A stretch of 64,000 nucleotides of DNA, from contig JAPJBO010000957.1 of the NCBI GenBank assembly GCA_030068145.1, positions 20,629-84,628 of the forward strand, written 5' to 3'. Below the pieces are notes generated by a model. That model made no database searches and was not told where the DNA came from. It was given only the letters and a program-made list of their open reading frames with translations. The position numbers and the translations under genes were made by a program. Numbering within the stretch: position 1 is the stretch's first letter; every line of letters starts with the position of its first letter. Of the stretch, positions 12,759 to 51,950 are shown piece after piece. The DNA is from Diplonema papillatum (Eukaryota > Euglenozoa > Diplonemea > Diplonemida > Diplonemidae).

Positions 12759-12889
12759 CCATGCTCTACTGCACTTTCTACCACGGGTCTCTGCTGGGTG
12801 CCTATACCTGGCAGCTTGCCATGTTTTTACAAAAACATAAACACGCGTCCCTCCGGTAGCGTAGGTGTTGGAGCTGTTGTCGCCGCTGA

Positions 12890-12990
12890 TGTTGATTGAT
12901 GAAACTGATGAAATTGAAGACGACGTTGATGATGGAGGTGGTGATGGTGATGGTGATCGTGATGATGATGAGGGCGATGATGATACTACG
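12890..12990. repeat. GAT-rich tract between ORF1 and ORF2 of A1
   Basis: Imperfect GAT/GGT repeats in the 273 bp gap between the two frames; repeated at 20438-20538 in A2. The gap is much longer than in A3 (54 bp) or B1 (15 bp). Confidence 0.7.
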
Positions 12991-13031
12991 GGGGCGGTCC
13001 CGGAAGCTAGCTTTGCAAAAGTTACCGGCAG

Positions 13032-17600: not shown

Positions 17601-20306
17601 TGTATCAAAGCACTTCTTGAAGTCGAAGGCTATTCCAAAAAGGGGGCGTCCGGTAATCCGCGCCTCCTCCAATTCCGCCGCCAGGTGCCAGAATAGATCT
17701 TCTGTGCTGTGTCCGGGCCGACAACCATGCAATCCTTCCGGTGCTAGCTCTTCCATCCATTTTTGCGCTTCTTTGGCCCTTACTGCTGCCCAAACCCTGT
17801 ATAGCACCGGTGCAACCGAGATCGGGCGCTGAGACAGCGGGTCACCCGTGCTGTCAGGTTTCGGAATGAGGGAGATTAGTGCATGCATGAGATCCTCCGG
17901 CCACTCGCCTTGCCCCTCCACGTCATTCAGTACCTGCACAAACCCATTCAGAATGTCATTTGGCAGTTGTTGCAATTCGTGGATCCTCCACCCATGCATT
18001 CCTGCCGAGGCCGACTTCTTCATCTTTGCCAACACTGCCCTCACGTCCTTCACCGTGATCGGCTCGCACTGCATCTCCACTCTGTCCGGGAGTATGGACT
18101 CGTACGTTCGCATAAAGCGCTCCCAACATGGCTCCTCCTGTCGTGTGTATTTATTGAAGATTCCTCCCCACGCACCATCGCTGCGCAGCATTCCGTCGAT
18201 CTCCTTCGCATTCGCCGTAAGGGTTTTGTCTTCTCGTCTCATAAATAGCAATGGAGCGGTGTAGCGGTCAGCAACATGGGCGAATACGAGCCCCCCACCA
18301 TGCATCCATGCCTCCTGCATCTTATGCGCCCACTGCGATCTCCTGTGCCGTTTGAGTGCGGCGAACGCCGCCTTTTGTGTCCCCTCGAGGTCGGCTAATG
18401 TACTCTGCAGCGTCTGTAACTCGGTAAATGCGCTGGAGGTCACAGCTTCTACAACGGATTTTGGGATGTAGCCCCTGATAACCCTCCTCCGCGCGGCGTC
18501 TCTCGCGTGTTCTTCCCGTCTTGTGAGCGGGTATGGCACGTCCGCCCTTAAGCGCTCGTGCCCGACCTGCACTAGCGTTCGGAGATGCCCCAGCAGTTCG
18601 TCTCGTGCACGTGTCTGCTTCGTGGACGCTCCTCTTACCGACTGTGGTTGGAACTTTGTAGCCAGCCGGGAGTCAGTGACTACTCGTCCTCCTCGTCCCG
18701 TGTACATCCCCGTAGGCAATACTAGATCTTTGCCGTGCAACTTCACTAAGTATTGTTCGGCACACTGCGATAGCTGTTTTAGACTGTGTGTCCCCCATCG
18801 CGTTTCCTTTGCTCTCTTGGCCAGTGCCTCGAGGTCGTCTCTCTCGTTCTGCTTCAACTTAGGTCTTTCTCGCGGGAAAGCGGCCGGGAGTATGGCGCGG
18901 CTGCTCTGTTCCCGGAATGCCTGCTGGCGGAGATTTACGTACAGCGGCGAGTGCGTGTGGAACTTGCTGCTCTCTCTCGCAACTGTCATTACCGTGTCAA
19001 CGGCCGGTGCTGCACATGAGTTTGCGAGGCATAAGTCAATCCGACTTCCTTCTAACGCGTTCGGTGCCCAGCATGTGTTCGGCGGTATTTCACCACGTCC
19101 TCCAGCGTACGCAGCTGCCACGTCCACCCACCTCCCGGAACGACATGCTGCCGCTAGCACCGGACTCGACTCTGTTGTGCAATTGAGGTCACCGAGCACC
19201 AATACCGGCACCTGTCCCAGCCCCGCTGCAACGCCTAACACCTCCGATAGGAGCTGTTCCCTTTCTTGCTGCACCTGCGTGCTGCTACCAGACTGCCCAT
19301 ACACGGAGAAAATGTGCATGGCTGTCTTCCCACAATCCAGGGCCACGGCTACTTGCACAACGCGTGTCGATGCGACAATTTTCTTCTCACATTCTTCCAC
19401 TGGGGTCACTCGCTGCGCTGTGAGGTGCTGCCTTGTCAGGACCGCCACTCCTCCAGGCTTTCTTTGCGTCTTTCCATCCCTTCCTACCACCATTTCTACA
19501 TCGTTTCCCCAGTACACGTCCCACCCGTATGCTGCCAGTAGCGAACACATGTAAGCTTTTTCATGTTTCGTTACCCGCGTTTCTTGAACTACGATGATGT
19601 CCGCTACGAGCCGGGCTACTTCCAGTAGCTTTTCGGTGTCTAGGGACGTGACGTTGATCGTGACAATGACCAATGCACCGCTGTCCGCCGTGGCTACCAT
19701 ACTTACTGTTCGCCGCATGGGTGTCGCTGGGGGGTCGGCAGGTAGAGCAGGTTGTGTTCGTGCTGCTAGAGATTCTTGGCTCGGAATCGGGACTACCCCA
19801 TCTGTTGATCGCTGGAGCTTCTCCCGCATCCGGCTCGTGACTAGCAGGATATCGTAGTGTTCCCTCCTGTACGTTACGGTTAGGACTTTGGAGGGAGCTG
19901 CTCCTCTGCCGTACCTTGCGATCGACTTTCTGCTTCCTGCGGCGTCCAAGACCCATATTGCGGCATCGAGGATTTCTGCCGCTGCCTGCAGGCACCAATG
20001 ATCCCCGTACGTTGTCCGTTCTTCCATGTGGTCCAGGTATTCGTCATACGTTTGACGGTCTCTCTCATCCTCGGGACAAAACATCCCACGGTACTCGTCG
20101 TTGTTCCGCAGCCATCCCACCACTTGCTGTCTCAGCGTGGCTGCCGACCGATCTTTCATGCACCGAGCTAGCGACGCGAACATACACGCGCCATCCTGTG
20201 CAACCGGTAGGACCACTGCCCCCAGCCGGCTCGCTGCGTCTCGAAGCCACGTGTTGGCTTCTTCGATTTCTTGGAGGGGGTCCTGTCCGGGCCCTCCTCC
20301 CCTCAT
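14661..20306 (-). CDS. LINE ORF2: OTU-APE-RT-zinc-RNase H polyprotein (A2)
   Basis: 1881 residues, with a protein sequence that appears identical to that of A1 ORF2. All catalytic residues listed for A1 are present at the same positions: OTU Cys41/His150, APE E242/D373/H452, RT YVDD 983-986, knuckle C1324 to C1342, RNase H D1540/E1582/D1609. It starts at the same ATG in the MRGGG context, which also begins family B ORF2. The conservation of a 5.6 kb frame in two copies means the element was coding-competent very recently. No frameshift or stop is seen. Confidence 0.95.
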   Translation of the reverse strand: MRGGGPGQDPLQEIEEANTWLRDAASRLGAVVLPVAQDGACMFASLARCMKDRSAATLRQQVVGWLRNNDEYRGMFCPEDERDRQTYDEYLDHMEERTTYGDHWCLQAAAEILDAAIWVLDAAGSRKSIARYGRGAAPSKVLTVTYRREHYDILLVTSRMREKLQRSTDGVVPIPSQESLAARTQPALPADPPATPMRRTVSMVATADSGALVIVTINVTSLDTEKLLEVARLVADIIVVQETRVTKHEKAYMCSLLAAYGWDVYWGNDVEMVVGRDGKTQRKPGGVAVLTRQHLTAQRVTPVEECEKKIVASTRVVQVAVALDCGKTAMHIFSVYGQSGSSTQVQQEREQLLSEVLGVAAGLGQVPVLVLGDLNCTTESSPVLAAACRSGRWVDVAAAYAGGRGEIPPNTCWAPNALEGSRIDLCLANSCAAPAVDTVMTVARESSKFHTHSPLYVNLRQQAFREQSSRAILPAAFPRERPKLKQNERDDLEALAKRAKETRWGTHSLKQLSQCAEQYLVKLHGKDLVLPTGMYTGRGGRVVTDSRLATKFQPQSVRGASTKQTRARDELLGHLRTLVQVGHERLRADVPYPLTRREEHARDAARRRVIRGYIPKSVVEAVTSSAFTELQTLQSTLADLEGTQKAAFAALKRHRRSQWAHKMQEAWMHGGGLVFAHVADRYTAPLLFMRREDKTLTANAKEIDGMLRSDGAWGGIFNKYTRQEEPCWERFMRTYESILPDRVEMQCEPITVKDVRAVLAKMKKSASAGMHGWRIHELQQLPNDILNGFVQVLNDVEGQGEWPEDLMHALISLIPKPDSTGDPLSQRPISVAPVLYRVWAAVRAKEAQKWMEELAPEGLHGCRPGHSTEDLFWHLAAELEEARITGRPLFGIAFDFKKCFDTVPIGVTMQLAKRLGFNAMVLRALEAAYKQMRRHFKVNGTVGEGFTPTNGIMQGCAISVILIGLLISVWMRHVKREGEPRSYVDDITATAKEARLLQTIANKTIRFTVLTGLSLCPKKCHSFGTSDGWLIEVMDWQEHADVFESQEPAQFYKRADSFDCLGVMLHAKGQGHKLSSRIQERRRSAVQNLQRVKRLPVPAAAREKLASMTAGAKLYYGISVMPLDRKTAYTLRQLIMSALWTGTNRRAVEVVMQVLHHGHRLDPHTAPAYLRVKAWVRQMQKWQHIRTSAQRAWTRRDDLPKGSPHSLIQEALNQAGWTWDSPITLLYVSESAQQTSFHVTSATEVETKVMLHDLRHALRGQQLAIVCRRREDMRGCAHGVDGSVTRHLLQTPDSGITGYQQGMLRSIIAGAVSTTGRTGQRRPCPYCNDEEGETVAHLWWMCEAWKDVREEHGMVTTDRTTWPTCLSMCGIAPLYRHGVDAAAQPIPLDHVRACAFVGNLQRFFLAVLRARQIRDDRAQETSRHHRLAQYPWGWTTPCPRRISMPTIEVGTVSQQWKQTEALWKALHWWIGKLCWAHIGSEHTVTFLELAVDFELTTGERLPDVSDRRIQPPTMRKTKTTTAREILPPSEAQSGLCLYFDGGSRQNGTALAVAGAGAVVYEDGKKIAEVIVPLGRTTNNVAEFSALVGGLHLLGEQPPSVQGPVTVRGDSKVVISTMKKTAQCKPILRPYLLQATASMGALAPRFNFNLEHVARDRNTDADALSNAAMDQVQEQTSGEVSTVMAQYEAYRRSALAKARTLHRLANTAARIYGTAWHPGRVANVTSATALGGGVMQGVSCRAVLSPQTEAVLRSMSRGASDTEGTTPNPFVKAHERWAASIQPERYYEATWKETAEWKGRGREDPPSQRSHPPTRRNVNAALRCTKHDAPRCTTCTRRRIPPDTCCRQQHANHEEGNQCQSRLHFRVRRNHRQRPAGASAVT

Positions 20307-20579
20307 CCATGCTCTACTGCACTTTCTACCACGGGTCTCTGCTGGGTGCCTATACCTGGCAGCTTGCCATGTTTTTACAAAAACATAAACACGCGTCCCT
20401 CCGGTAGCGTAGGTGTTGGAGCTGTTGTCGCCGCTGATGTTGATTGATGAAACTGATGAAATTGAAGACGACGTTGATGATGGAGGTGGTGATGGTGATG
20501 GTGATCGTGATGATGATGAGGGCGATGATGATACTACGGGGGCGGTCCCGGAAGCTAGCTTTGCAAAAGTTACCGGCAG

Positions 20580-22377: not shown

Positions 22378-25300
22378 TCACGTCACAGCTGATGGTCCTG
22401 CCGGCTGCTCGTGGTGGCCACGCGCTGATCTAAAGTGCAGCCTTGTTTGGTCAAGGCTCCCTGCTTCATGTCCCTTGTGCTGCAGGTTGCAACATGTATC
22501 TGGGGGCAATCGCCTCTTTTTACACGCGGTGCAGCGGGGTGCAACATGCTTCGTGCATCTTGCCGTCGCATTCTTCGCTCGCCCTGCAGTTGGTCGGGAT
22601 TGCTGGCTGCTTGCGCCCTTCTCCTGCTCTCTTCCCTTCCACTCCGCTTCCTTCTCCCATGTTGTACTGTAAAAGAGTTCTGGGTGCCTGCTCGCTGCCC
22701 ATGCCTCGTGTGCCTTCACAAACGGGTTCGCGAGTGTCGTCGTAGCTATGCCAGGGCGCGGCTGGCTCATTGCCCGCAGCACCGTTTCGGTTTGCGAGGC
22801 GAGTTCGGCTCGGCACGAGAGGCCTAGCATCACCCCTCCGCCTAGCGCTGTGACGCTGGTGACATTGGAGACATGCCCACAATGCCACGCCACGCCACAG
22901 ATCCGTGCTACCGCGCTGGTGACCGCTCGGAAAGATTGGCCTTTCGCCAGTGCACTGCTCTTAAACTCGTCGTACTGCGCCCGTATCACTCCTACCTGCG
23001 CACCCGTCCCTGCTTGTGCCATGTCCATGGCTGCGTTACTTAACGCGTCCGCATCAACGTTCTTCTTCCGCGGTACGTGTTCCAAGCTGAACTCAAACCG
23101 CGGCGACAGGTCGACCATGCTGGCTTTCGCCTGTAGAAAATACGGTCGCAGGTTGGGTTTGCATATAGCCGTCCCGTTTACCGGACCTATCACAACTTGT
23201 GAGTCGCCCCTGATCTTTACCGGCCCTCCCACATCGCGTGGTTGCTCCCCGAGCAGTCGTATCCCCGCTATCAGGCCGTTGTATTCGGCCACGTTGTTGG
23301 TTGTTCGACCCAAGGGGACCGTTGCTTCCGCCAGTTTTATTCCATCCTTGTACAAAACTGCTCCGGCCCCCGCTACCGCCAGAGCGGTCCCGTTCTGCCT
23401 TGAGCCGCCATCGAAATACACGCAAAGGCCCGCAGTGGTTTCTCTGAGGGGAAGAATTGCTCGGGCCGTTGTCGCCTTGGCTGCCGAGGCTGTCGGTGGT
23501 TGGATGCGGCGATTCGCCACTTCCGGCAGTCGTACGCCCGTCGTGACTTCGAAGTCAATGGCCAACTCCACGAATGTCACTGTGTGCTCCGATTCGACGT
23601 GCGCCCATCGGAGCCTGTTCAGCCACCAGTGCATGGCGTTCCACAATTCGCCGCCGTGCTTCCACTGCTGCGTGATTGTACCGGCATCAATCGTTGGGAT
23701 GCAGACCCGTCTTGGGCTCAATGTTCTCCACCCCCACGGGTATTGGACCAGACGATGGTGGCGACTTGTCTCCTGCTCTCTCTCATCCCGTATTTGTCTT
23801 GCACGCAGTACAGCCAGGAAGTAACGCTGCAGCCCGCTCACGAATTGACATGCTTCGCCATGGTCGAGTGGAACTGGTTGCTGGGCGGGGTCCGTGTCGT
23901 GTTTGAACAATGGTGCGACTCCGCAAATGCTAAGGCAGTTAGGCCATGTCGTCCTGTCTACGGAGCCCATGCCGTGCTCCTCCCGTACATTCCCCCAAGC
24001 CTCACACTCCCACCACAAGTGCGCCACAGTTTCCCTCTCGTCATTGTTGCAATACGGGCAAGTCGCATTTTGCCCCGTTCTGCCTGTCGTTGCCACGGCT
24101 CCTGCTAGTATGGACCGTAACATTCCCTGCTGGTATCCCGTTACACCACTATCGGCTGTTTCGAGGAGATGTCGTGTTACGCTCCCATCCACCCCGTGCT
24201 CACACCCTCTCAGGTCTTCCCTTCTGTTGCACATGTTTCTCATCTGTCGGCGCCGTAGCGCCTGGCGTAAGTCGTGCAGCATGATCGCCGTCTGCTTCTC
24301 GCTTGCATTGCTCGCGTGGAACACGACCTGCTGTCCTATCTCACTGGTGTACCCGATGACCTCGGGGGTCGTCCACACCCACTCCGCCTGGCTTAGAGAA
24401 TCTTGCATTAACCTGTGTGGAGACCCAGCCGGTAGCGTCTCTCTGCGCGTCCAAGCCACTTCCGCCAGCGCTCTGATGTGCCGCCACTTCTGCATTTGTC
24501 GCACCCAAGTCCGGATTCGTATGTACGCCGGGGCAGTAACTGGGTCCAGCCGGTGCCCGTGGTGGAGCACCTGCATCACCATTTCAACAGCGCGTCGGCT
24601 AGGACCAGTCCATAGGGCCGACATGATGGCCTGGCGCATAGTGTTGGACGTTCTGTTGTCTAACTGCATGACGGATATGCCATAGTACATTCTGGCACAC
24701 GCGGTCATTGACGCCAGCGTTTCACGTGCCGTCGCTGGAACTGGGATCTTCTTAACTCGTTGTAAGTTTGCAATTGCTCCTTCTCTGCGCTGTTGAATCC
24801 TGCTCGACAGCTGGCGTCCATGTCCCAACGCGTGAACCATGACCCCAAGACAATCGAAGCTATCCGTCCGTTTGTAGAACCGCGGGGGGTCTTGTGAGAC
24901 GAAAATATTAGCGTCTTCCTGCCAGCTCATGATTTCCACTAATGGCTGGCGCAACGTCGTTCCAAACGAGTGGGATTTCGCAAGGCAAATCCATAAACCT
25001 GTCAATTTTTCGAACTGCACCGTCTTGTTCGCGATCGTCTGCAGGTGATTCGCTTCTCTGGCCGTGGCTGTCACGTCATCCACGTACGATCGCGGACAGC
25101 CTTCTTGCGCTACGTGCCTCATCCACACGCTAATCAGCAGCCCTATCAGGATCACACTGATGGCGCAGCCCTGCATGATTCCGTTTGTTGGAATAAATCC
25201 TACCCCGACCGTCCCGTTCACTTTAAAATGCCGTTGCATTTGTCGGTATGCGGCTTTCAACGCCCGAAGCACCTTTCGGTTAAACCCAAGCCTCTTCGCG

Positions 25301-28053
25301 AGTCGCAGTGTGATGTCGATGGGTACCGAGTCGAAGCATTTCTTGAAATCGAACGCGATGCCATGGAGCGGGCGTCCCATGAGATGCGCCTCTTCGATCT
25401 CGGCTGCCAGATGCCAGAAAAGGTCTTCCGTACTGTGCCCGGGTCTGCATCCATGTAGTCCCTCTGGAGCTAATTCGTCCATCCAGCTTTGCGCATTCTT
25501 AGCCCTGATAGCAGCCCATATCCTGTACAGCACCGGTGCCACTGAGATCGGTCGTTGGGACAATGGATCCCCAGTACTCTTCGGTTTCGGTATCAGCGAG
25601 ACGAGAGCGTGCATCAGTTCTTCCGGCCATTCTCCGCTTTCTTCCACCTCGTTGAGCACCCGTGCAAACCCTTCCAAAAGCGAGTTCGGTAGCTGTTGCA
25701 GCTCGTGGATCCTCCACCCGTGCATCCCGGCCGAGGCTGACTTCTTCATCTTCGCCAGCGCTGCTCTCACTTCCCCCACCGTGATCGACTCGCACTCCAT
25801 TTCGGCCCTGTCCGGCAAGACGGGGCTGTACATTCGCAGGAACCGTCCCCAGCACGGTTCCTCCTGCGTTGCGTATCGTTGAAATATTCCGCCCCACGCC
25901 TTCTCGCCCCTCAAGATCTCGTCTATCTCCGCTGCGTTCGCCGTCAGGGTTTTGTCCTCTCGCTGCAGGAAAGTCAACGGTGAGGAGTATCTGTCGGCGA
26001 TGTAATCGAACACTAAGCCCCTTCCGTGCGCCCAAGCTTCCTGCATCTTATGCGTCCACTGTGTTTTCCTGTGCCGCCTGAGCGCAGTGAACGCTGCCTT
26101 TTGGGATCCCTCCAGGTCCGCCAAGGCGCTCTGGAGTGCTTGTAGCTCGGAAAGATCGGCTGTCATCACGATGTTGGCAACTGCCTCCGGGATGTAACCT
26201 CGTCCTACTCTCTTTCGTGCGGCATCTCTCGCGTTCTCTTCTCGCCTCGTTAGCGGATACGGTATGCCAGCACTCAGACGCTCCCGGCCTGCTTGCACCA
26301 ACGTCCGCAGGTGCCCCAACAGCTCGTCTCGTGCACGTGTTTGCTTGGTGGAGGCACCCCTTGTTGACGAGTGTTGGAACTTACTAGCAAGCCGTGAGTC
26401 GCTGACAGCTTGGTTCCCACGTCCTGTGTACGCCCTAGACGGCAATGCGAGCTCGTGCCTGTGCAACATGAGAAGGTAGCCCTCTGCTTGTTGCGATAGC
26501 TCCTTCAAACTCATCGCTCCCGTTAGAGCCTCTTGTGCTTCCCTGGCGAACACTTCTAAGCCACTCTTTTCTTCCTGGTTTAGCTTGGGGTACGCCCGAG
26601 GAAATGCGGCCGGGAGTATTGCACGCCTGTGACGCTCTCGGAATGCCTGCTGGCGTATCGTTACGTACATCGGTGCATGCGTGTAGAATTCGCTGTCTTT
26701 CCTCTCTACTGTGAAGACTTTGCTGATGGCAGGTGCCGCACATGCATTCGCGAGGCACAAGTCTATCCTGCTCCCTCCTGTCGTATTCGGCGCCCAACAT
26801 GTGCACGGTGGTTCTTCGCCTTGGCCTACCGCGTAAGCGGCTGCCGCATCTGCCCACCTTCCCGACCGGCACGCTGCAGCTAGAACTGAACTGGTCTCTG
26901 TTGTGCAGTTGTAGTCTCCTACTACCAGAGTCGGCACCTGTCCCAGACCTGCCGCTACGCCCAGCACCTCTGATACCAGCTGTTCCCTTTCCCTTTGCAC
27001 CTGCACGCTATTTCCACTCTGCCCGTACAACGAGAATATGTGTAGTGCCGTTCTGCCGTCCCCCAGGGCTACGGCGACGTGCACAACGCGAGTCGATGCC
27101 ACCACTCTCTTCTCAGACTCTTCTACCGCCGCTACCCGCTGTGCTGCGAGGTGCTGCCGGGTCATCACTGCCACTCCACCCGGTCTCCTTTGCCACCTCC
27201 CGTCTCTACCTTCCACCATCGTCACGTCGTCGCCCCAGTGTACGTTCCATCCGTACGCCGCGAGAAAAGAGCTCATATAGGCTTTTTCCACCTTTGTAAC
27301 GCGGGTCTCTTGCAGAACTACTATATCTGCTTTGAGCAGGGCCACCACCAACAGTTTCTCCGTGTCCAAGGACGTCACGTTTATGGTGACGATAATCAGG
27401 TCGTCGTCCTGCGAGCGCGATGTTTCTTCTGCTTTCGCCTCGGCGACGCGACGCCCCTGGATGCGTGCTGGTGGGGCCGCGCTGACGGGTATCTTTACTG
27501 CCCTGCCGTCCGATTCGGACCGCCGGGCTCGTCCTTGCCCGATGAACAGGTCATTAAGCGGCAATGTGTTTTGCTCAGCCTGCTCTAGCTTCCGCAGGCT
27601 GGCGTGTGGGAGCTGAACGCTGTCGTAGTGCTGCGGGAGGTACGTGACTACGACGGTTCTTTCCGCTCCTTCCGTGGTCCACCGTTGGATGACACCGCGC
27701 CGTTCTGCGTTGATGACCCATATGCTGCACCGTAGCACTTCGGCCGCCGCACACAACGTCACCTCATCGCCATATGTGCCGTTGAGCCTCATCCTGGCTA
27801 TGTATGGGGCTAGCTCCTCCCCGACCATCGCTTCCCAGTACCTGGCGGTATTTGTCTCGATGTTTGCCACCACCCTTTCCCTCAACGAACCGGCATCAAT
27901 ATTCCCGTAGCCTTCTGCGATTGCGGAGAACTGACAGTTTCCATCCCCTGGTACGTGTGTGATTCTCGCACACATGCTGCGCGCCGTCTGCTCCAACCAC
28001 TCGTGGTTGCGAGGGTACTGTCCTCCACCGTCTTCTCTTCCTCCCCCAACCAT
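22378..28053 (-). CDS. LINE ORF2: OTU-APE-RT-zinc-RNase H polyprotein (A3)
   Basis: 1891 residues from the ATG at 28053 (the frame is open to a GTG 33 bases upstream, but MVGGG resembles the MRGGG start of the other copies). OTU: D37-G-N-C40 and H142 in QHYDS, closer to the canonical OTU pattern than A1. APE: TINVTSL, QETRV, GDYN, RIDLCL and YTHAPM, again without the Asp of SDH. RT: AFDFKKCFDSVP and YVDD at roughly 990. CCHC knuckle CPYCNNDERETVAHLWWEC. RNase H: YFDGGSRQNG, NNVAEYNG, RGDSQVV, DADALSNA. The C-terminal unit is CTKHVAPRCTACKKRR followed by PPDTCC. Function as for A1. Confidence 0.95.
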   Translation of the reverse strand: MVGGGREDGGGQYPRNHEWLEQTARSMCARITHVPGDGNCQFSAIAEGYGNIDAGSLRERVVANIETNTARYWEAMVGEELAPYIARMRLNGTYGDEVTLCAAAEVLRCSIWVINAERRGVIQRWTTEGAERTVVVTYLPQHYDSVQLPHASLRKLEQAEQNTLPLNDLFIGQGRARRSESDGRAVKIPVSAAPPARIQGRRVAEAKAEETSRSQDDDLIIVTINVTSLDTEKLLVVALLKADIVVLQETRVTKVEKAYMSSFLAAYGWNVHWGDDVTMVEGRDGRWQRRPGGVAVMTRQHLAAQRVAAVEESEKRVVASTRVVHVAVALGDGRTALHIFSLYGQSGNSVQVQREREQLVSEVLGVAAGLGQVPTLVVGDYNCTTETSSVLAAACRSGRWADAAAAYAVGQGEEPPCTCWAPNTTGGSRIDLCLANACAAPAISKVFTVERKDSEFYTHAPMYVTIRQQAFRERHRRAILPAAFPRAYPKLNQEEKSGLEVFAREAQEALTGAMSLKELSQQAEGYLLMLHRHELALPSRAYTGRGNQAVSDSRLASKFQHSSTRGASTKQTRARDELLGHLRTLVQAGRERLSAGIPYPLTRREENARDAARKRVGRGYIPEAVANIVMTADLSELQALQSALADLEGSQKAAFTALRRHRKTQWTHKMQEAWAHGRGLVFDYIADRYSSPLTFLQREDKTLTANAAEIDEILRGEKAWGGIFQRYATQEEPCWGRFLRMYSPVLPDRAEMECESITVGEVRAALAKMKKSASAGMHGWRIHELQQLPNSLLEGFARVLNEVEESGEWPEELMHALVSLIPKPKSTGDPLSQRPISVAPVLYRIWAAIRAKNAQSWMDELAPEGLHGCRPGHSTEDLFWHLAAEIEEAHLMGRPLHGIAFDFKKCFDSVPIDITLRLAKRLGFNRKVLRALKAAYRQMQRHFKVNGTVGVGFIPTNGIMQGCAISVILIGLLISVWMRHVAQEGCPRSYVDDVTATAREANHLQTIANKTVQFEKLTGLWICLAKSHSFGTTLRQPLVEIMSWQEDANIFVSQDPPRFYKRTDSFDCLGVMVHALGHGRQLSSRIQQRREGAIANLQRVKKIPVPATARETLASMTACARMYYGISVMQLDNRTSNTMRQAIMSALWTGPSRRAVEMVMQVLHHGHRLDPVTAPAYIRIRTWVRQMQKWRHIRALAEVAWTRRETLPAGSPHRLMQDSLSQAEWVWTTPEVIGYTSEIGQQVVFHASNASEKQTAIMLHDLRQALRRRQMRNMCNRREDLRGCEHGVDGSVTRHLLETADSGVTGYQQGMLRSILAGAVATTGRTGQNATCPYCNNDERETVAHLWWECEAWGNVREEHGMGSVDRTTWPNCLSICGVAPLFKHDTDPAQQPVPLDHGEACQFVSGLQRYFLAVLRARQIRDEREQETSRHHRLVQYPWGWRTLSPRRVCIPTIDAGTITQQWKHGGELWNAMHWWLNRLRWAHVESEHTVTFVELAIDFEVTTGVRLPEVANRRIQPPTASAAKATTARAILPLRETTAGLCVYFDGGSRQNGTALAVAGAGAVLYKDGIKLAEATVPLGRTTNNVAEYNGLIAGIRLLGEQPRDVGGPVKIRGDSQVVIGPVNGTAICKPNLRPYFLQAKASMVDLSPRFEFSLEHVPRKKNVDADALSNAAMDMAQAGTGAQVGVIRAQYDEFKSSALAKGQSFRAVTSAVARICGVAWHCGHVSNVTSVTALGGGVMLGLSCRAELASQTETVLRAMSQPRPGIATTTLANPFVKAHEAWAASRHPELFYSTTWEKEAEWKGREQEKGASSQQSRPTAGRAKNATARCTKHVAPRCTACKKRRLPPDTCCNLQHKGHEAGSLDQTRLHFRSARGHHEQPAGPSAVT

Positions 28054-28107
28054 GCGTTGTTGCTTGCTAGCGAAGTCTGTGGCCACAGCTGGTCTCCCGG
28101 AGGTGAG

Positions 28108-33584: not shown

Positions 33585-34639
33585 CCCCCACGTATTAGTG
33601 TCGCCTCCGTTTCTCCCTTGTCAGTGTCGCCTTTTGTCCTGGAGACGCGAGGCGGCACCTGAAGGAAACAATCATTGACAACGAAGCTTGTGGCAGAAAG
33701 CAAGCATCCTGATGCCCATGACTGCGAGAAAGTCATTGGTCTGGATTCGACTGATCCGATACTGAATCAGCAGGAAACACAACAAGACGGGGCAAGAAAC
33801 CCGTCTTGCACCGTCTATAAACATGCATGACCAAAGCACAGACTGATCTACGAAAGCAGAGTGCGGTTTCTGGTACCCGGAACAGTAGCAACAACGGGCG
33901 CACGAGTCCATGAAGAAGCTGAAAGCTTCCTCGCGTGATCGACAGGTGTTGATTTCACCTCGCCAATGTAAATCTGCGTTCCTCGACAACGCCTCCATGC
34001 AAACTTAGAAAAATGGTGACTGAATGGGATTTCAACACGTATTGGCAGCCGGTCGAGTAGTGCTGTTGCGTCGTTTGACAGTCCTTCACATATTCTCGAA
34101 GAATTGGTGCAATGGAGGGAGGTACAACCGCATACTTGCCGACGAGTCGACAGTGTTTCCCCGGGCAACGGGTGCCAGAAGAAACAACTCGAGCCCCCGG
34201 TGCGGTGCAGAACAAGCGCAAGTACTCCAAGAAGCATGACAGGAGAACTGACATGGTCTAAATTTTGAGCCAACAGAGAAAGGACCAAAACATCACCAAA
34301 ACCGTGCGAGACCACGTCTGCGTGCGGCCTTGTTTGTAGCGGGAGACAGAGTCAACGAACACGCTTTCACATGCCAAGAAAGCACGCGATGTCATGGGAG
34401 GGTGCTGTATGTAGACGTCTGCCCTCTACTTCCACGACTACCATCCGCTGGTTTGCAGGTTTGCAGTCTTACCGGTGAGCATCGGAAGAATGCACGAGGG
34501 AACGTAACTATCTACCACGGTGGCAGTCACACCAATTTCCTTGCACCCTTGGTCACACCCCGTGTTAGTGTCGCCTTCCCGTGTTAGTGTCGCCTTTTCG
34601 GAACGGTGCCTTTAGGTAGGCGACACTAACACGGGGGGG
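33585..34639. mobile_element. Poly-C-capped TIR element (GTGTCGCCT type)
   Basis: The left end is CCCCCACGTATTAGTGTCGCCT. The right end, reverse-complemented, is CCCCCCCGTGTTAGTGTCGCCT. Extra copies of TTAGTGTCGCC or CAGTGTCGCC lie just inside both ends. It is about 1055 bp with no intact gene inside, so it is a non-autonomous TIR element with poly-C/poly-G caps. Confidence 0.65.
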
Positions 34640-35068
34640 AAAACTTAGTTTAATGTTTAGGCAGAACACTGCCTCGCGTGCATGTTTGATGCTAGCACCA
34701 AGTCTTCGTCGAAGAAAGTGTAAAATAAAATAGGGGAAAGGGAAAAAGGGTCGCAGGGAGTGTAAGACTCCGCAGGTAGGGTCTGGAACCTTGAGGGACT
34801 ATTCCTCTTATTCTTTTTTTCACCACGGTGTTGTGTGCACCTCGTTCTTTGTCTCTGGTGTCGCTCTTGAACGCATGCCAATCCAAAGTTAGAGCTCTTC
34901 AGGGTCCTTTGGACGGGGACTTTCGGTCCTGTTCCGGTGCTATCACAACTTTCTGGTTCCAATGTATATCCCATCCTTGCTTCGTCAGATTAAAAAAAGG
35001 GGGTTCTGGTTTGGGTTGTGGCTCGTAACCAACCGCCACGGGGCACTGCTTCCACTGAGTGAAAGTGT
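34640..35068. other. No gene seen
   Basis: Lies just downstream of the RT-USP relic on the minus strand and may be its 3' untranslated part. Confidence 0.3.
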
Positions 35069-36540
35069 TTATATCTTCTCAAGGGAGACGATGTAACCGT
35101 TCGAAACGAACTTTCCGGCACATGCTTCCCATGAGAGCACTGATACTTGCTGGTCGTCATAACACACCCATTCGTCTGCTTCTTTCATGATGGTGTAATA
35201 GTTCCCAGCATGTACTTTTCCAGTGTGGATTATGAAACCCGTCACCATGTACGTGTCTTCGCCAATCCCAATGATTGATTGGATTGGTGTGCGGGCTTTC
35301 ACTTTTATCTCCTCGCCTGTCCTCTTCGACCGTTGGGCTCGTTTCAGTGCCACATAGATCTCTTTCGAGGAGCCTACCGTCTTCTTTCGGCAAGTTGTAC
35401 AGTCGAGGTCGACATCGGCTGCTCTCTTGTTCTTTACTTTGTTTACAAGAACTTCAACCGTCTCGGTCTAGAAGTTCACCCTGTTCTTGAGTTCTACAAG
35501 GAGAAATGGTTCTAACACCGGCACCGCTGTCGAGGTCTCCTGACATACTTTACAGGTGGTTCGTCGTGAGTATGTCACCATCGTTGGGTCGTTGTTATCC
35601 CCCCTCACGCAGCTTCTCATCCATGTCAGCAGTTCGTGGGCATCACGGTGTTCGGAGTCGTTCTCGGTTGTGCCGAAAACGAGACTTCGAATTTCTTCCA
35701 TCGAACCGGCCAGCATCAAAATCCGTGAAAAGTCGACGGATTTTCAACTGTTCTTCATCCGGACGCTCGATAGTTTCGAGTTGGTTCCGGAAGTTTCGTT
35801 TGCGTGCCAGAAATTGGACGCTGGCGGCAAAGAAGCACGTGTTGCGAACGTTGGTGATGCCGTTGCGGTTGCGTTTGGGAGAACCTGTTGGTTCGTTTGA
35901 GGGCGAGACCGTCGTTGTGGTGTTTTCGGGCTCGGGCGGGTTGGGCGTCTGATGTGGTGGGGAGGTGGGTCGGTTCGGCTGCCGGGTGTTGATGTACGGC
36001 TTTTCTGCGTTCGTCGGGTGTCCTTCGTCGTAGGCTTTCCCAAATAGTGTCAGCACCCGTGCGTCCAGTTCGTACTTGCCGTATGTCTGCACGACAAAAG
36101 TATCGAACGTGTCGAAGTTCACGTCCGGAGAACCCACGATCTCGCAATCTGTAGTACACCTTCGTTATCTCGACTTTGAGATCAGGCTTGTTGCAGATGC
36201 GGGCTGCTCGTATCAGGGCACCTTTGAATATCGAGGTTCCGGTGTTTCGCGGAACCGTCGACTCGGCATGCGTGTATTTGATGGGGTACCATGGGAACTC
36301 TTCACCCTTGTCAAGAACGGAGAGTAGGATGAAGTTGGCTTTGTTACCCCTCTCAACTCTAACGCGCATTCCCAAGAAGACTACGTCGTCAACGTCTTTC
36401 GACGTTTCCGAATACTCCATGCCGTAGATTGCTTCCGGTGGTGGTCGTGCACTCCAAGTCAGGAAATCATCGATGAACCTGACGCTGTCGGCGTGGGCTC
36501 TGGCTTCTTCATGGCGTCCTTCCGTGATCAGGAAAGCTTT
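35069..36540 (-). pseudogene. Decayed reverse transcriptase fused or linked to a USP-type protease
   Basis: Minus-strand reading begins inside an RT palm: RFIDDFLTW (FIDD at about 36466-36477), then VVFLGMRV and a thumb-like FKGALIRAARICNKPDLKVE and RLRDRGFS, recalling Penelope-type RTs. After a frame change near 36140 comes a Pro/Thr-rich linker, then a USP (C19) protease: Cys box ITNVRNTCFFAASVQFL (Cys codon at about 35835), RDAHELL (about 35647), zinc-ribbon CKVC (35554-35545) and CTTC (35401-35392), and His box HAGNYYTIMK then WVCYDDQQV (from 35212). A frameshift near 35720 and a TAG at 35468 break it. The order and spacing of USP landmarks are canonical. The RT is truncated upstream at a repeat. 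Confidence 0.75.
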
Positions 36541-36548
36541 TCACACCA

Positions 36549-46083: not shown

Positions 46084-46098
46084 CTGACGAACGACGAG

Positions 46099-49000
46099 AT
46101 GCGTGGCGGAGGGAAGACGCTCGAAGCGCTGGGGTCTAGGTTGAAGGAAGCGGCGGACGCGATGGGGGCTAGTGTGCAAGAGATTCCTGGGGACGGTGCC
46201 TGCCAGTTCGCAGCGGTCGTGGCCGGGCTGCCGGGATGGTCGGTAGGGGGGCTTCGTGCGCGTGTTGTGGACGCGATGTTGGAGGACCCGACGTTCGAGG
46301 CTCACTTCGCGCCGTCCGAAAGGTACGGCAGCTGGGAGTTCTACGTGGGGGCGATGCGGGGACCGTACGAGTACGGGGACGAGATGACGCTGACGGCAGC
46401 CGCAACGGTCACCGGGACGACAATCTGGGTACTGGACAGCAGGAGACCGCACATCCTACGACGGTACGCACCTCGCGCGGGCGCCACAGGGGAGCAGGCG
46501 GTAGTCACGTATGTACCGGAACACTACGACCGACTCCTACTCCCGGGCAGCGCAATAGCAGAGCTGGCGCGACGTACGGACACGGTGGAAACTGCGGCAT
46601 TGCGCATTGGGGACGCGGGGAGGGTCGCGGCGGATGAAAGAGGGGGCGCCGAGTCACGGGAGGTGCCGCCGAAGTGGGATGGCGGAGTGTTGCAACGAGA
46701 GGAAGGGAAGACACTGAAGTTTGGAACGCTGAACATGACCTCGTTGGGGGGAAGGGCACACTTTTTGGACTGTGCCGCGGTAGACATCCTGGCGGTACAG
46801 GAGACGCTCTTGACCGAATGGGGTCAGAGGGAATTCGAGGACGGCGTCCGACAAAGCTGGAAGTCGCTGTGGGGGGAACCGTGTCGGGAACGGCTCGACC
46901 GGCAGGGTAAGGCGTCACCGTGGGTAGCGGAAGCCGGCGGAGCGGGTGTTGCAGTTTTTGCGAAGAAACCGGCGCCGGCCTTCGTGGTCGGGAAGCCATC
47001 ACTGAGCCGAAGATGGGTGCACGTGGCCGTCGGAATTGGAAAAGGAAGCCAATTCTTGCATATATTCACTCTATATGCGAACTCTGGAGAAAAGGCTGCG
47101 TCGGAGAGGGAGAGGATCATTGCGGAGGTGCACCGGGAAGCATCGAGTCTCGGACGGGTGCCAGTGGTTGTGGCCGGGGACTTCAATGCAGAACCCTCGT
47201 CGTCGGCGGCGATGTCGAGCATGCTGCGGTCGGGATGGTACGACGCCGCGGAAATCTGCTCCGCTGGCGGTGCCCCGAAGACGTACGAGAAGACAGGCAC
47301 GCGAGGCACACGCATCGACCACATCTTGTTGAACGACGTCGCGATGCAGGCACTCGTAGCGAGCGAGACCACCGTCGTCGTGGACGGGGAGGGGCAGCGG
47401 GTGCCCAGTCACAAGATGGTAACGGTGGAGTTGGACATCGCCGCGTTCGCAGACACGTGTGAGAGGTATCGAATGCCGAGGTCACTGCGGCATATAAGCA
47501 AGGTGGACGAGGGGCGGACAGCGGCAAGGGCGGAAGAGTTGTTGGTGAAGAATCGCTTCGGCGATGCGGCACCAGGGAACGTGGAAGCACTCTGGCTGTC
47601 GGCGACGAAGGCGTGCGAGCAGTTTCTGATCGAGCTGGCAGAGGAACAGGGGCTGCTCGACGGGCCCGTTGCCGCCTATCGAGGAAGAGGTGAGACGAGG
47701 GTGCCCAAAAGGGCGCGGATTGCATCTGCGACGGACACCGGGACGGGCGCAGACACATATGCCTCGAGCAGAGTCCGGAAGGCGATGAACGGCCTCGACG
47801 CGTATATCCGAGGGTTGCAAGCTCTGAATGGGGAAGGACCTGGGTGCATGCCGAGGTCGCTGGAGAAGACGTGGCAGAACGTGGTGTCTGGTCTGGATTC
47901 TATGGCCGGACAATTACCGAAGGTGCGCAATTTCCCGCGGCGTCCACCGGACTTGAGCGTCGCCCAGACCGTCAGGCAGAAGCTGGAAGCGAGAAGCCGT
48001 TCACTGACGGCACAAGCGCGTAAAGGAAGGATTGCACAGCTGGAGAACAAGATGCAAAACCTCCACTGCGCGAACAAAGGGCAGTTGCTACCGTGGTGCA
48101 GGAAGAAGAGGGCGGATGGCCTGGTGGCGCTGAAGGTGGAGGGGCAGTACACGGCGAATGCGCGGCAGATCGATGCGGCGTTGCAGAAGGAGTGGGCGCC
48201 GGTTAACCGGATGTACGAGTGCAAACAGGAGCCAAGCTATGAAGCGTTCCGGACGGAGTATGCGGAGTACATCGAACATCGTCCGATGGAATGCCGAGAT
48301 TTGACGGGCGAGGATCTGAGAAGCATTCTTGGAAAGAAGAGGGATGGCGGTGTCCCAGGTGTGGACGGATGGAACACAGCGGAGCTGAAGAAGCTGCCAT
48401 TGCCGCTACTGAACGCCCTGGCAGAGGTGTTCAACGCGATAGAAGCGACCGGGACGTGGCCAGACGCGTTGTTGGAAGCCGCGGTCACGCTGATCCCGAA
48501 GGACGAAACTCTTGACCCGCTGGCGTTGCGGCCGATCACCGTCACAAGTGCGATCTATCGCTTGTGGGCGAGTACGCGGCTCAGGGACGTCGTCCAGTGG
48601 CAGGAGAAATGGATAGCGAATAGCCAGCACGGGTTCAGGCCCAAACACGGAACCGTGGACGTGGTATTCGAAATCGCCTCGCAAATCGAAGAAGCGCTCT
48701 TGACGGGAAGGGAGCTATACGGCGTGGCCCTAGACTTTGCCAAGTGTTTTGACAAGGTGCCGCGAGACATCGTGTTGAAGCTGGTGGGGGAGCTGGGCCT
48801 CCATGAGAGAATCCTCGGGCCGCTGCGCGACATTTACGCGCGACTACGAAGGCGGTACAAGCTGCACATGGGAGTGGGAGGTGTCTTCTTCACCACCAAT
48901 GGGATACTGCAGGGCTGCCCCCTGAGCGTGATCCTCATCAACGCGCTGCTGTCCATCGTGGTGCGCAGAGTGGACGACGTGGGGGGGGTGACGAGCGAAT

Positions 49001-51621
49001 CCTTCGCGGACGACCTCACCCTCCTGTCGCGTCTCAAGGAAGCCTGCTTGCAGAACGCCTTGGTGGAAGTCGACAGATTTTGTTCGAACACCGGCATGTC
49101 GATCGGGATACCGAAGACGTTTGCTTTTGGGACGCCGAAGGCGTATGAAGCGAAGTTGAGGGTAGGCGGCGCACTTATCGCGACGAAGGAGGAGCTCACC
49201 ATCGTTGGGTGTCTAGTCGGCACGAAGCGAACACGCAGGACAACGGACCTGCGCTACGACCAGCGTGCAGAGGAGGCCGAACGGTTGGGAGCTCTGCCGA
49301 TCTCGATGACGCAGAGGTCGGGACTAGCGGCGATGGCAGTTTTACCGGCGGCGACATACGGCTCGGAGTTCGCGCTTCCGACGGTGCGGGGGCTGGGGAA
49401 GTTCACCGCAGCGTTACTCAGAGGCGTCTGGGACCCGGTGAGGCTGCATCGGGCACAGGAGGCCGTGTTGGGCATTCTAAACAAGGCCCACGTGCTCGAC
49501 CCCTACTCAGTGCTGCCGTATCGGTCGCTCGGTATGATTGCAGAAGTGTGCCGAAAGAGGCCGGTATGGAGGGCCCGCGTCGCAACAGTTCGAAGGGCGT
49601 ATGGCAGCAGAATCCGCGCATGGGGACCGATCGGTATTGCGGCCGAGCATGCAAAAAAGCTCGGTATACGATGGACGGAAGATCTCGACGACGCCGAGGA
49701 CGAGGCAGGGAATGTGCTGAGACTGGTGCGACAGAGTAAGGGGGAGCGAGGGCACACCCTGAGAAAGGCGATTCACGGCTGGCGACTAGGGGAGCTCGAG
49801 AAGAGGCGCACAAACTTCGGAGGGGTACGGGCGGGTGTCGACTACACCGCGACGAATGCCTACGGGCTGAAGGCGTCGACAACGCTGACGGCCGCGCGGG
49901 ACGTTGCCGAGGTCGTAGCAGGGTCGGTGATGACGGAATCACATGCTGCCAAGCTGTGGGGAGGTGACGGGCTGTGCAGACGCTGTGACGAGGCGACGGA
50001 AGAAACTCTGGGCCACATTTGGTGGCAGTGCCGGGCGTATGAACGAATCCGAATGCAACAGCAGTATGCCGAAATTGTTGACGCAGATCGCTCGACTTGG
50101 CCTCCGTGCCTGCAAGAACACGGGATTCTGCCGAAGGGAAGTCGAATCAACATCGAAGTGCTGCACACATTCATGGCGGAAGTCATGCAAGAGAGACGAC
50201 GGCTGGAGAGAGAAGGAAGAGACCGGGCAGTCGGCCACCCCTGGAGACAACTGCACCCTGACGACTGCCCCCCGCGCCGGCTGAATTTCGAAGCGATCGC
50301 TGGACCGGGGACCTTCACGGCGGTCGCAGGAGAGAGGTGGTTCCGGGCGCTGCAGTATTGGCTGGATGGGATGTGCTGGTCGGTAGCGGGTGACGTCTCG
50401 ACGGCAGAGCTCGCAGTAGACTTCGAAGTGTACACCGGGCTCGATCTACCGGGCAGTTTAGTGGCGACGACAGGTGGGACGCCGCTGTGTATCCGTGCGA
50501 GAATGTTGGCGCGGATGCTGAAAACGATCGGGGAAGCGCTTGAGCGGAAAGGGGTGGGGCCGCTTCTGCCGGGTAGAAAGCTGGAGAAGATAGGTTCATT
50601 GAGAACGGTAGGGGCCCCCCCATGCCTCACGGGCTACGAGATGAGGCCAATTTTCCGCGGCGGCGAGGAGACGATGGGAATCTTGGAGACGCAGCTGAAG
50701 GCGAGCCGGCATGCGTTCACCGGCGAGGCGTGGGGGATGGACCTTTTCCCGACGTACGGAAGAGAAAGGGCGGAGCGTGCGGCGAGATGGGCGGCCTTCG
50801 ATGACGCTACGGAGAAGAAGAAAGGCAAGAAGTCGGCTGTCGTCGGAGGGGATCCGTGGCTCGTGCCGGAAGGGATTCCCCGACACGAAAAGTGGGGTGA
50901 GCGGGTGTGCCCCGGGCACCAAAAGGTGAAGTGCGACGTGTGCAAGCGCCGGGGCAAGTCGGTGGCGTGGTGCTGCCAGGCCCATCACAGGGAGGGTGAT
51001 GGCCTAGCCGTAAAAATGTGTGCCGAGCACCGGATGACGCAGTGCGCCACGTGTAAGACGACAGCGGAGTGCTGTCGCAACCATCACCACCGATGCCTCG
51101 ATCATGGCATGCCGACGTGCGACGGCTGTAAGAAACACGCCGACCTGAGGAGTAGGAGACCCGGGCACTGCTGCAGGAAAGGGCACCACCGGGCGGCCGT
51201 GGCGAGAGGTGAAGAAACAACAACGGAGAAGAGGAAGGCGGAGCCGGAGGGTCCCGCGCCAGCGCCGAGACAGGCGAAACGTGAGAACGTGGTGCTCGTT
51301 CTGCCGGAAGCAGAGGAAGACGAGCGAGAACCCGCAACATCAACGCCGACATCAGCAGCGAAGGTCGGGAAGACGGCGCCAACGCCAGCGAAGAAGCGGC
51401 AATCAGACTCCGCGGCGGAGCCGGTACCGAAAAGACGCAAAGGACGCGTCGATGCGCCACGACCATCGCCCAGGCGCCGAGAAGAAGCAGATATCGACGC
51501 GCAACCGATGAACCTCGACGAGCAATCGAAGAAGAAGCGATGCACCAAACGCGCGCCTGAGCGCGACGATCAAGACGAGCTAAAGAGGCGAAAGCATGAC
51601 ACATCACGTGCGAAGAGATAA
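46099..51621 (+). CDS. LINE ORF2: OTU-APE-RT with triple Cys/His tail (B1)
   Basis: 1840 residues from ATG, same MRGGG start as family A. OTU protease: D32-G-A-C35 and H142 in EHYD. APE endonuclease: N212, E235 in QETLL, D361/N363 in GDFN, D407, H438 in PSHK (Asp of SDH absent). RT: box A D879/D885, active site FADD at 969-972 instead of Y-x-DD. CCHC knuckle C1293, C1296, H1306, C1311. The AELAVDFE block (about 1436-1443) is kept, but no RNase H follows. The tail (1604-1696) has three units of the form C-x2-H-x4/5-C-x2-C-x5-16-CC-x2-HH, then a Lys/Arg/Pro-rich C-terminus that may localise it to the nucleus. Intact. Confidence 0.95.
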   Translation: MRGGGKTLEALGSRLKEAADAMGASVQEIPGDGACQFAAVVAGLPGWSVGGLRARVVDAMLEDPTFEAHFAPSERYGSWEFYVGAMRGPYEYGDEMTLTAAATVTGTTIWVLDSRRPHILRRYAPRAGATGEQAVVTYVPEHYDRLLLPGSAIAELARRTDTVETAALRIGDAGRVAADERGGAESREVPPKWDGGVLQREEGKTLKFGTLNMTSLGGRAHFLDCAAVDILAVQETLLTEWGQREFEDGVRQSWKSLWGEPCRERLDRQGKASPWVAEAGGAGVAVFAKKPAPAFVVGKPSLSRRWVHVAVGIGKGSQFLHIFTLYANSGEKAASERERIIAEVHREASSLGRVPVVVAGDFNAEPSSSAAMSSMLRSGWYDAAEICSAGGAPKTYEKTGTRGTRIDHILLNDVAMQALVASETTVVVDGEGQRVPSHKMVTVELDIAAFADTCERYRMPRSLRHISKVDEGRTAARAEELLVKNRFGDAAPGNVEALWLSATKACEQFLIELAEEQGLLDGPVAAYRGRGETRVPKRARIASATDTGTGADTYASSRVRKAMNGLDAYIRGLQALNGEGPGCMPRSLEKTWQNVVSGLDSMAGQLPKVRNFPRRPPDLSVAQTVRQKLEARSRSLTAQARKGRIAQLENKMQNLHCANKGQLLPWCRKKRADGLVALKVEGQYTANARQIDAALQKEWAPVNRMYECKQEPSYEAFRTEYAEYIEHRPMECRDLTGEDLRSILGKKRDGGVPGVDGWNTAELKKLPLPLLNALAEVFNAIEATGTWPDALLEAAVTLIPKDETLDPLALRPITVTSAIYRLWASTRLRDVVQWQEKWIANSQHGFRPKHGTVDVVFEIASQIEEALLTGRELYGVALDFAKCFDKVPRDIVLKLVGELGLHERILGPLRDIYARLRRRYKLHMGVGGVFFTTNGILQGCPLSVILINALLSIVVRRVDDVGGVTSESFADDLTLLSRLKEACLQNALVEVDRFCSNTGMSIGIPKTFAFGTPKAYEAKLRVGGALIATKEELTIVGCLVGTKRTRRTTDLRYDQRAEEAERLGALPISMTQRSGLAAMAVLPAATYGSEFALPTVRGLGKFTAALLRGVWDPVRLHRAQEAVLGILNKAHVLDPYSVLPYRSLGMIAEVCRKRPVWRARVATVRRAYGSRIRAWGPIGIAAEHAKKLGIRWTEDLDDAEDEAGNVLRLVRQSKGERGHTLRKAIHGWRLGELEKRRTNFGGVRAGVDYTATNAYGLKASTTLTAARDVAEVVAGSVMTESHAAKLWGGDGLCRRCDEATEETLGHIWWQCRAYERIRMQQQYAEIVDADRSTWPPCLQEHGILPKGSRINIEVLHTFMAEVMQERRRLEREGRDRAVGHPWRQLHPDDCPPRRLNFEAIAGPGTFTAVAGERWFRALQYWLDGMCWSVAGDVSTAELAVDFEVYTGLDLPGSLVATTGGTPLCIRARMLARMLKTIGEALERKGVGPLLPGRKLEKIGSLRTVGAPPCLTGYEMRPIFRGGEETMGILETQLKASRHAFTGEAWGMDLFPTYGRERAERAARWAAFDDATEKKKGKKSAVVGGDPWLVPEGIPRHEKWGERVCPGHQKVKCDVCKRRGKSVAWCCQAHHREGDGLAVKMCAEHRMTQCATCKTTAECCRNHHHRCLDHGMPTCDGCKKHADLRSRRPGHCCRKGHHRAAVARGEETTTEKRKAEPEGPAPAPRQAKRENVVLVLPEAEEDEREPATSTPTSAAKVGKTAPTPAKKRQSDSAAEPVPKRRKGRVDAPRPSPRRREEADIDAQPMNLDEQSKKKRCTKRAPERDDQDELKRRKHDTSRAKR

Positions 51622-51935: not shown

Positions 51936-51950
51936 CTGGGGAACGACGGG

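Follow-up and report, generated by a model that had tools for sequence, protein, structure and literature searches.

The window, a stretch of 64,000 nucleotides from contig JAPJBO010000957.1 of Diplonema papillatum, holds the remains of a retroelement on its minus strand together with LINEs of two families (Table 1). The initial annotation had read a reverse transcriptase (RT) palm and thumb, a Pro-rich linker and the landmarks of a ubiquitin-specific protease (USP, peptidase C19) between 35069 and 36540, and all of these were found there on the minus strand. The decay that it had described is equally visible: the reading frame shifts close to 36140 and 35720, and together with an in-frame TAG at 35468 this breaks the region into separate ORFs. 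Similarity to the 1448-aa subfamily of an element family termed A extends from 36548 to 34634, and identity to five other copies (L009, L010, L011, L012 and L023) is 93.3–93.7% over about 1.98–1.99 kb. The fragment is confirmed as one dead copy among the many of this retroelement. It shares its 3′ terminus with the other copies, and its 5′ start falls between the motifs that we take to be RT motifs B and C. When four pieces of the copy were searched separately with Pfam, UCH (PF00443) was matched at 3.7e-9 on 35069-35467; the Cys-box piece scored 0.0041 (17.2 bits, under the 23.9 cut-off), and the remaining two pieces gave no match. At the catalytic His position the window copy has Asn, whereas His is kept in all 18 long frames described below. 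In the flank of the copy, at 34559-34635, a 17-base unit occurs twice in the same direction (34559 and 34578) and once inverted (34619).

Table 1. Features of the window, with positions counted from its first letter
Feature	Position	Strand	Basis
Decayed, 5′-truncated copy of probable Penelope-like element (PLE) family A, 1448-aa subfamily	34633..36548	(-)	Identity to other copies
RT remnant: motif C (RFIDD), later palm and thumb; truncation removed motifs A and B	36004..36548	(-)	ORF 35755-36540 and alignment with intact copies; ends by eye
Pro-rich linker joining RT to USP	35864..36003	(-)	Ends by eye
USP (peptidase C19) domain, split over three frame pieces	35069..35863	(-)	PF00443 on two of three pieces, one below cut-off
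USP Cys codon	35835-35837	(-)	
Catalytic His position, occupied by Asn	35201-35203	(-)	
3′ untranslated region, common to other copies	34640..35068	(-)	Copy comparison
C homopolymer at 3′ junction, then flank	34633..34639	(-)	Comparison of termini
LINE ORF2s: N-terminal OTU protease, endonuclease, RT, RNase H	7113-13031, 14661-20579, 22378-28107	(-)	
Second LINE family	46084-51621, 51936-56927	(+)	Endonuclease and RT in first by Pfam

Intact copies and their protein

Intact relatives with one continuous frame, which the initial annotation had recommended seeking, occur in this genome, as two families, and in a foreign contig. Searching the genome (271 Mb in 2910 contigs) at the protein level with the USP end, with 150 of 908 candidates scored, gave at least 151 matches, a number far above chance; frames of at least 1400 aa were counted by hand in 33 of the 150 matches listed. 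Sixteen family A stretches were fetched, picked mostly for long frames, and five family A frames were translated (1448, 1458, 1491, 1513 and 1525 aa). A second, divergent family, B, was recognised from an ORF downstream of one copy. Its search gave 52 rows, 24 of them with frames of at least 1500 aa (counted by hand, with 51 of 4778 candidates scored), and three of its stretches were read. A frame of at least 1400 aa was present in 18 of the 19 stretches fetched (15 of family A and 3 of family B), with none that long in L021. Each of these 18 long frames contained the motifs of a GIY-YIG endonuclease, a CxC linker, an RT and a USP together in one protein, and at least 57 rows (33 A and 24 B) lie in frames long enough for the fusion. 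The proposed link between an RT and a C19 protease within a single element is supported: both domains sit in one uninterrupted frame in both families and in the foreign contig. ORFs of the sampled copies were 99.0–100% identical within the sets compared; the copies are young and the element has spread recently. PLEs without a USP were not found among the 49 of 487 candidates scored in the same genome, and no relatives were confirmed in IMG/VR.

The intact protein is a single polypeptide of about 1420–1650 aa. From N- to C-terminus it consists of a low-complexity N-terminus, the GIY-YIG endonuclease, the CxC linker, the RT, the Pro-rich linker and the USP, which in family B is followed by a longer tail. 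Pfam matched UCH in four proteins of family A (9e-16 to 3.8e-18) and in three of family B (4.9e-20 to 1.5e-20). GIY-YIG (PF01541) was matched at 5.5e-6 to 3.1e-4 in family A, above the cut-off in three of four proteins, and at 1.5e-4 to 8.9e-4 in family B; the fourth A protein and all three B proteins fell just below, at 20.0–22.4 against 22.6 bits. Between A and B, residue identity is 33% in the endonuclease, 36% in the RT and 24% in the USP. Both families have RT motifs A (FDF or WDF), B (GIPMG.NASPD) and C (FIDD). The CxC reads CPC in all 18 long frames and is invariant in the five lineages that have that part, being CPC in A and B and CNC, CDC and CKC in three foreign relatives (L038, L039 and L041). 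These three also have an extra pair of Cys residues in the endonuclease, absent from A and B. Matches to an arenavirus glycoprotein (E 0.024 and 0.005) at residues 498-601 of one family A protein (P0001, from L009) fall on the CxC linker and were judged to be due to chance; Pfam did not give this match for P0002-P0004 or for family B. A zinc finger suggested by eye in the family B tail had no Pfam match.

Termini, tandems and class of the element

Copies stand in head-to-tail tandems whose units measure 5726 and 5850 bp, and the tandem repeats are 99.91–100% identical. Direct repeats of 233–433 bp resembling pseudo-LTRs flank the unit at four of 16 loci (L014, L018, L019 and L020). At L037 (517-8417), the family B tandem unit measures ∼7.9 kb, with some 2.5 kb ahead of the ORF, longer than in family A. 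A 20-base word recovered 17 distinct family A termini (20 rows, the window included), a count that covers subfamilies other than those of 1513 and 1491 aa, whose loci did not match the word. All 17 end in T followed by at least four C; three continue into the next tandem unit and two have a common flank. In family B, a C tract ends 11 of 15 rows (10 places), and none occurs within the 700 bases printed in the other four rows (3 places). Because families A and B, with unlike 3′ ends, both finish in C tracts, these termini suggest an insertion bias toward C/G homopolymers, with a tract that may partly be the element's own end.

The element is probably a PLE with an N-terminal GIY-YIG endonuclease, a class absent from the initial annotation. 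A GIY-YIG endonuclease and an RT share one ORF, and the window copy is 5′-truncated; the endonuclease precedes the RT with a CxC between them in both A and B, as in PLEs with an N-terminal endonuclease and not as in canonical PLEs, where it lies C-terminal to the RT. Such N-terminal-endonuclease PLEs, with Chlamys and Naiad groups, were reportedly described by Craig et al. in 2021. In A and B the endonuclease is without the CCHH motif, as in the Chlamys subgroup, in that it lacks the extra Cys pair of L038, L039 and L041, which places it closer to Chlamys. By its domain features, the nearest PLE group is probably Chlamys. Features shared with Chlamys and Naiad are the N-terminal GIY-YIG, the CxC, the telomerase-type RT, pseudo-LTR tandems, no hammerhead found and, possibly, simple-repeat junctions; families A and B differ in adding a C-terminal USP.

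The RT appears to be related to telomerase. Foldseek ranks 1–9 for an AlphaFold model of the endonuclease and RT were all telomerase RTs in the PDB (best E 4.9e-4, two of nine under 0.001), matches that support this relationship and stop short of proof, as the model is weak (pLDDT 48.8; telomerase TM-scores 0.18–0.26; next match E 1). A sequence profile of the RT had no PDB match, and Pfam RVT_1 was absent or below its cut-off in all PLE proteins scanned. A match to the model of group II intron RTs, at 5.6e-4 and well short of its cut-off, is explained by shared RT motifs alone. For the hammerhead ribozyme, Rfam searches run without a positive control gave no hits at the gathering threshold in nine loci and none up to E 2 in three loci, where the sole match was an unrelated mir-344.

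The USP domain and its proposed role

All 18 long frames carry the Cys, His and Asp boxes of the USP, and none of these three residues varies among the six USPs aligned. The domain has the C19 features of fold and of catalytic Cys, His and Asp/Asn. The 50 best structural matches of its model (pLDDT 64.8) were all USPs (TM-scores 0.26–0.45), and a profile built from A and B together matched USP46 and USP12 in the PDB at about 1e-20; a profile of family A only had no PDB match at E 1e-8. In four bootstrapped pairs, dN/dS of the USP was 0.098, 0.117 and 0.257 in A and 0.203 in B (calculated without the tail), and no bootstrap upper limit exceeded 0.416. The wider of these pairs have dS near saturation, and undefined dS cost them 13 and 32 of 200 bootstrap replicates; the closer pairs gave 0.20–0.26. 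Across a larger set the values ran from 0.098 to 0.258 in six pairs; one further pair was too similar to yield a value and the A-B pair too distant. The linker showed 0.19–0.64 within families and, in the more divergent pairs of family A, the highest dN of any segment. These ratios indicate that the USP is under purifying selection. With low dN/dS, kept catalytic motifs and young copies, it is a maintained part of a recently spread element, and apparently an active deubiquitinase that would hydrolyse ubiquitin. The ratios speak of constraint and not of substrate, and a related modifier rather than ubiquitin could be the target.

In the PLE model, insertion from a nick gives 5′ truncations and head-to-tail tandems, and the anatomy seen here is consistent with it. 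The endonuclease would nick DNA, favouring C/G homopolymers, and the RT would copy the element RNA starting at the nick, leaving such truncations and tandems. The USP most likely frees the element's own protein complex of ubiquitin, allowing escape from the proteasome, or strips ubiquitin from chromatin and from DNA-damage proteins at the site of the nick. On balance we favour, as the probable account of the locus, a dead PLE copy whose intact relatives encode an endonuclease-CxC-RT-USP protein in which the USP deubiquitinates either the element's own complex or proteins where the element inserts.

Several other readings were weighed against this account. That a host USP gene adjoins or received an RT insertion, or that the fusion is an assembly error, has a negligible probability given 18 fused frames at separate places, the 57 rows in frames of sufficient length and the fusion in a foreign contig. 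The separate, intron-bearing host USP beside an RT that would have overturned the initial annotation is inconsistent with the 18 frames read, where the fusion rules out a separate host gene or neighbouring insertion. Transposable elements often bear pieces of host genes, and the USP evolves faster than the RT, as might a functionless passenger captured by chance; dN/dS of 0.10–0.26 with the bootstrap limits given above, catalytic motifs kept across the long frames of two divergent families, and the close similarity of young copies make this highly improbable.

A working protease could also act on other targets. It ends one long polypeptide behind a flexible Pro-rich linker, as polyprotein-processing proteases can, and might cleave the element's polypeptide at a ubiquitin-like site instead of removing ubiquitin. 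However, none of the proteins scanned has a ubiquitin-like domain by Pfam, the three other N-terminal-endonuclease PLEs fetched have no protease by Pfam, and to our knowledge USPs require the ubiquitin fold, so we regard processing as quite improbable. Less remote, though still unlikely, is action in trans, aimed at host defence or at stress signalling and not at the complex or insertion site of the element itself. Two unrelated retroelement classes here bear deubiquitinase-type proteases (USP in PLEs and OTU in LINEs), as counter-defence predicts, yet fusion to the RT points to local action, and a free protein would fit a role in trans better.

Relatives and comparison with known elements

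Four relatives were found in a scan of prokaryote genome contigs; they are probably eukaryote contaminants in MAGs. Three of them (L038, L039 and L041) have the N-terminal GIY-YIG, CxC and RT, with no USP or other protease by Pfam. In the Naiad-like contigs L039 (214-870 and 5487-6050) and L041 (1-456), a charged ORF lies upstream; in L039 it flanks the RT ORF on both sides, an arrangement like that of a tandem. The fourth, L040 (WVYN01000087.1, 3808 bp), encodes an RT and then a complete USP in one frame that is open at its 5′ end, with PF00443 matched at 5.6e-27 over profile positions 1-254 of 254. Its RT is 42% identical to that of L038 and 28% to that of family A. This third fusion means that the RT-USP architecture is not private to the present genome and, provided that the L040 contig is not chimeric, would place it in at least two organisms.

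Whether the USP was acquired once or repeatedly was considered from trees, bit scores and divergence. An RT tree grouped L040 with the USP-free L038 with weak support (74/76) and flagged long branches, and a single clade of USP bearers was not rejected (AU p 0.14). The best cellular USP in the PDB scored 45.9 bits for the family B USP and 39.9 bits for that of L040, whereas these two scored 17.2–17.5 bits against each other and at best 28.1 (B) and 25.0 (L040) against the family A USP. These scores lean towards separate captures, in a comparison where the PDB gives far more chances for a best match. For A and B, a single capture fits, as their USP/RT dN ratio of 1.35 is not above the 1.5–2.4 found inside A; the shared position of the USP, and a divergence no larger than a faster-evolving USP predicts, speak for it. 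We tentatively entertain, at somewhat less than even confidence, the broader idea that telomerase-related retroelements of different eukaryotes captured cellular deubiquitinases more than once, defeating ubiquitin-based control of retrotransposition, with the LINEs here doing likewise with OTU.

Chlamys PLEs are known from Ectocarpus (PMC12477816). Canonical PLEs (Penelope/Poseidon) likewise have GIY-YIG and a telomerase-like RT in one ORF and pseudo-LTR tandems; they differ in a C-terminal endonuclease and a hammerhead ribozyme, A and B having an N-terminal endonuclease and no ribozyme found (PMC11167929). Ubiquitin-type proteases fused to a mobility enzyme have precedents among DNA transposons: PMC2836005 gives OTU, Ulp1 or C19 proteases in Ginger1 and some Helitrons and Mutators, with OTU and Ulp1 in Ginger1 and a Trichomonas transposase with peptidase C19. 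Families A and B share that fusion but are retroelements with a telomerase-type RT. A description of a USP in a PLE was not found in the open-access papers searched, with PMC6431247, PMC2836005 and PMC3482391 among them and the principal paper on this group of PLEs outside them.

With cellular USPs (USP12/46, USP21 and USP15), the USP of A and B has the Cys box, the His box and the zinc-binding CxxC pairs in common; it differs in being divergent and in residing within a mobile element. A maintained USP in a probable N-terminal-endonuclease PLE extends the known protein content of PLEs and links telomerase-type RTs to ubiquitin signalling. A retroelement with its own putative deubiquitinase would make ubiquitin control of retrotransposition directly testable by a single catalytic mutant.

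The OTU LINEs of the window similarly combine a retroelement with a deubiquitinase-type cysteine protease. They differ from A and B in the class of RT and endonuclease, and their OTU is N-terminal whereas the USP is C-terminal. OTU (PF02338) was matched at 2.5e-8 in ORF2 7113-13031 and at 1.7e-8 in 22378-28107, the two scanned; ORF2s 7113-13031 and 14661-20579 are identical in DNA. The occurrence of OTU in LINEs and USP in PLEs of one genome suggests a common pressure. In the second LINE family, the one copy scanned has no Pfam score for OTU, and an OTU-like GDGACQF is seen by eye in both copies.
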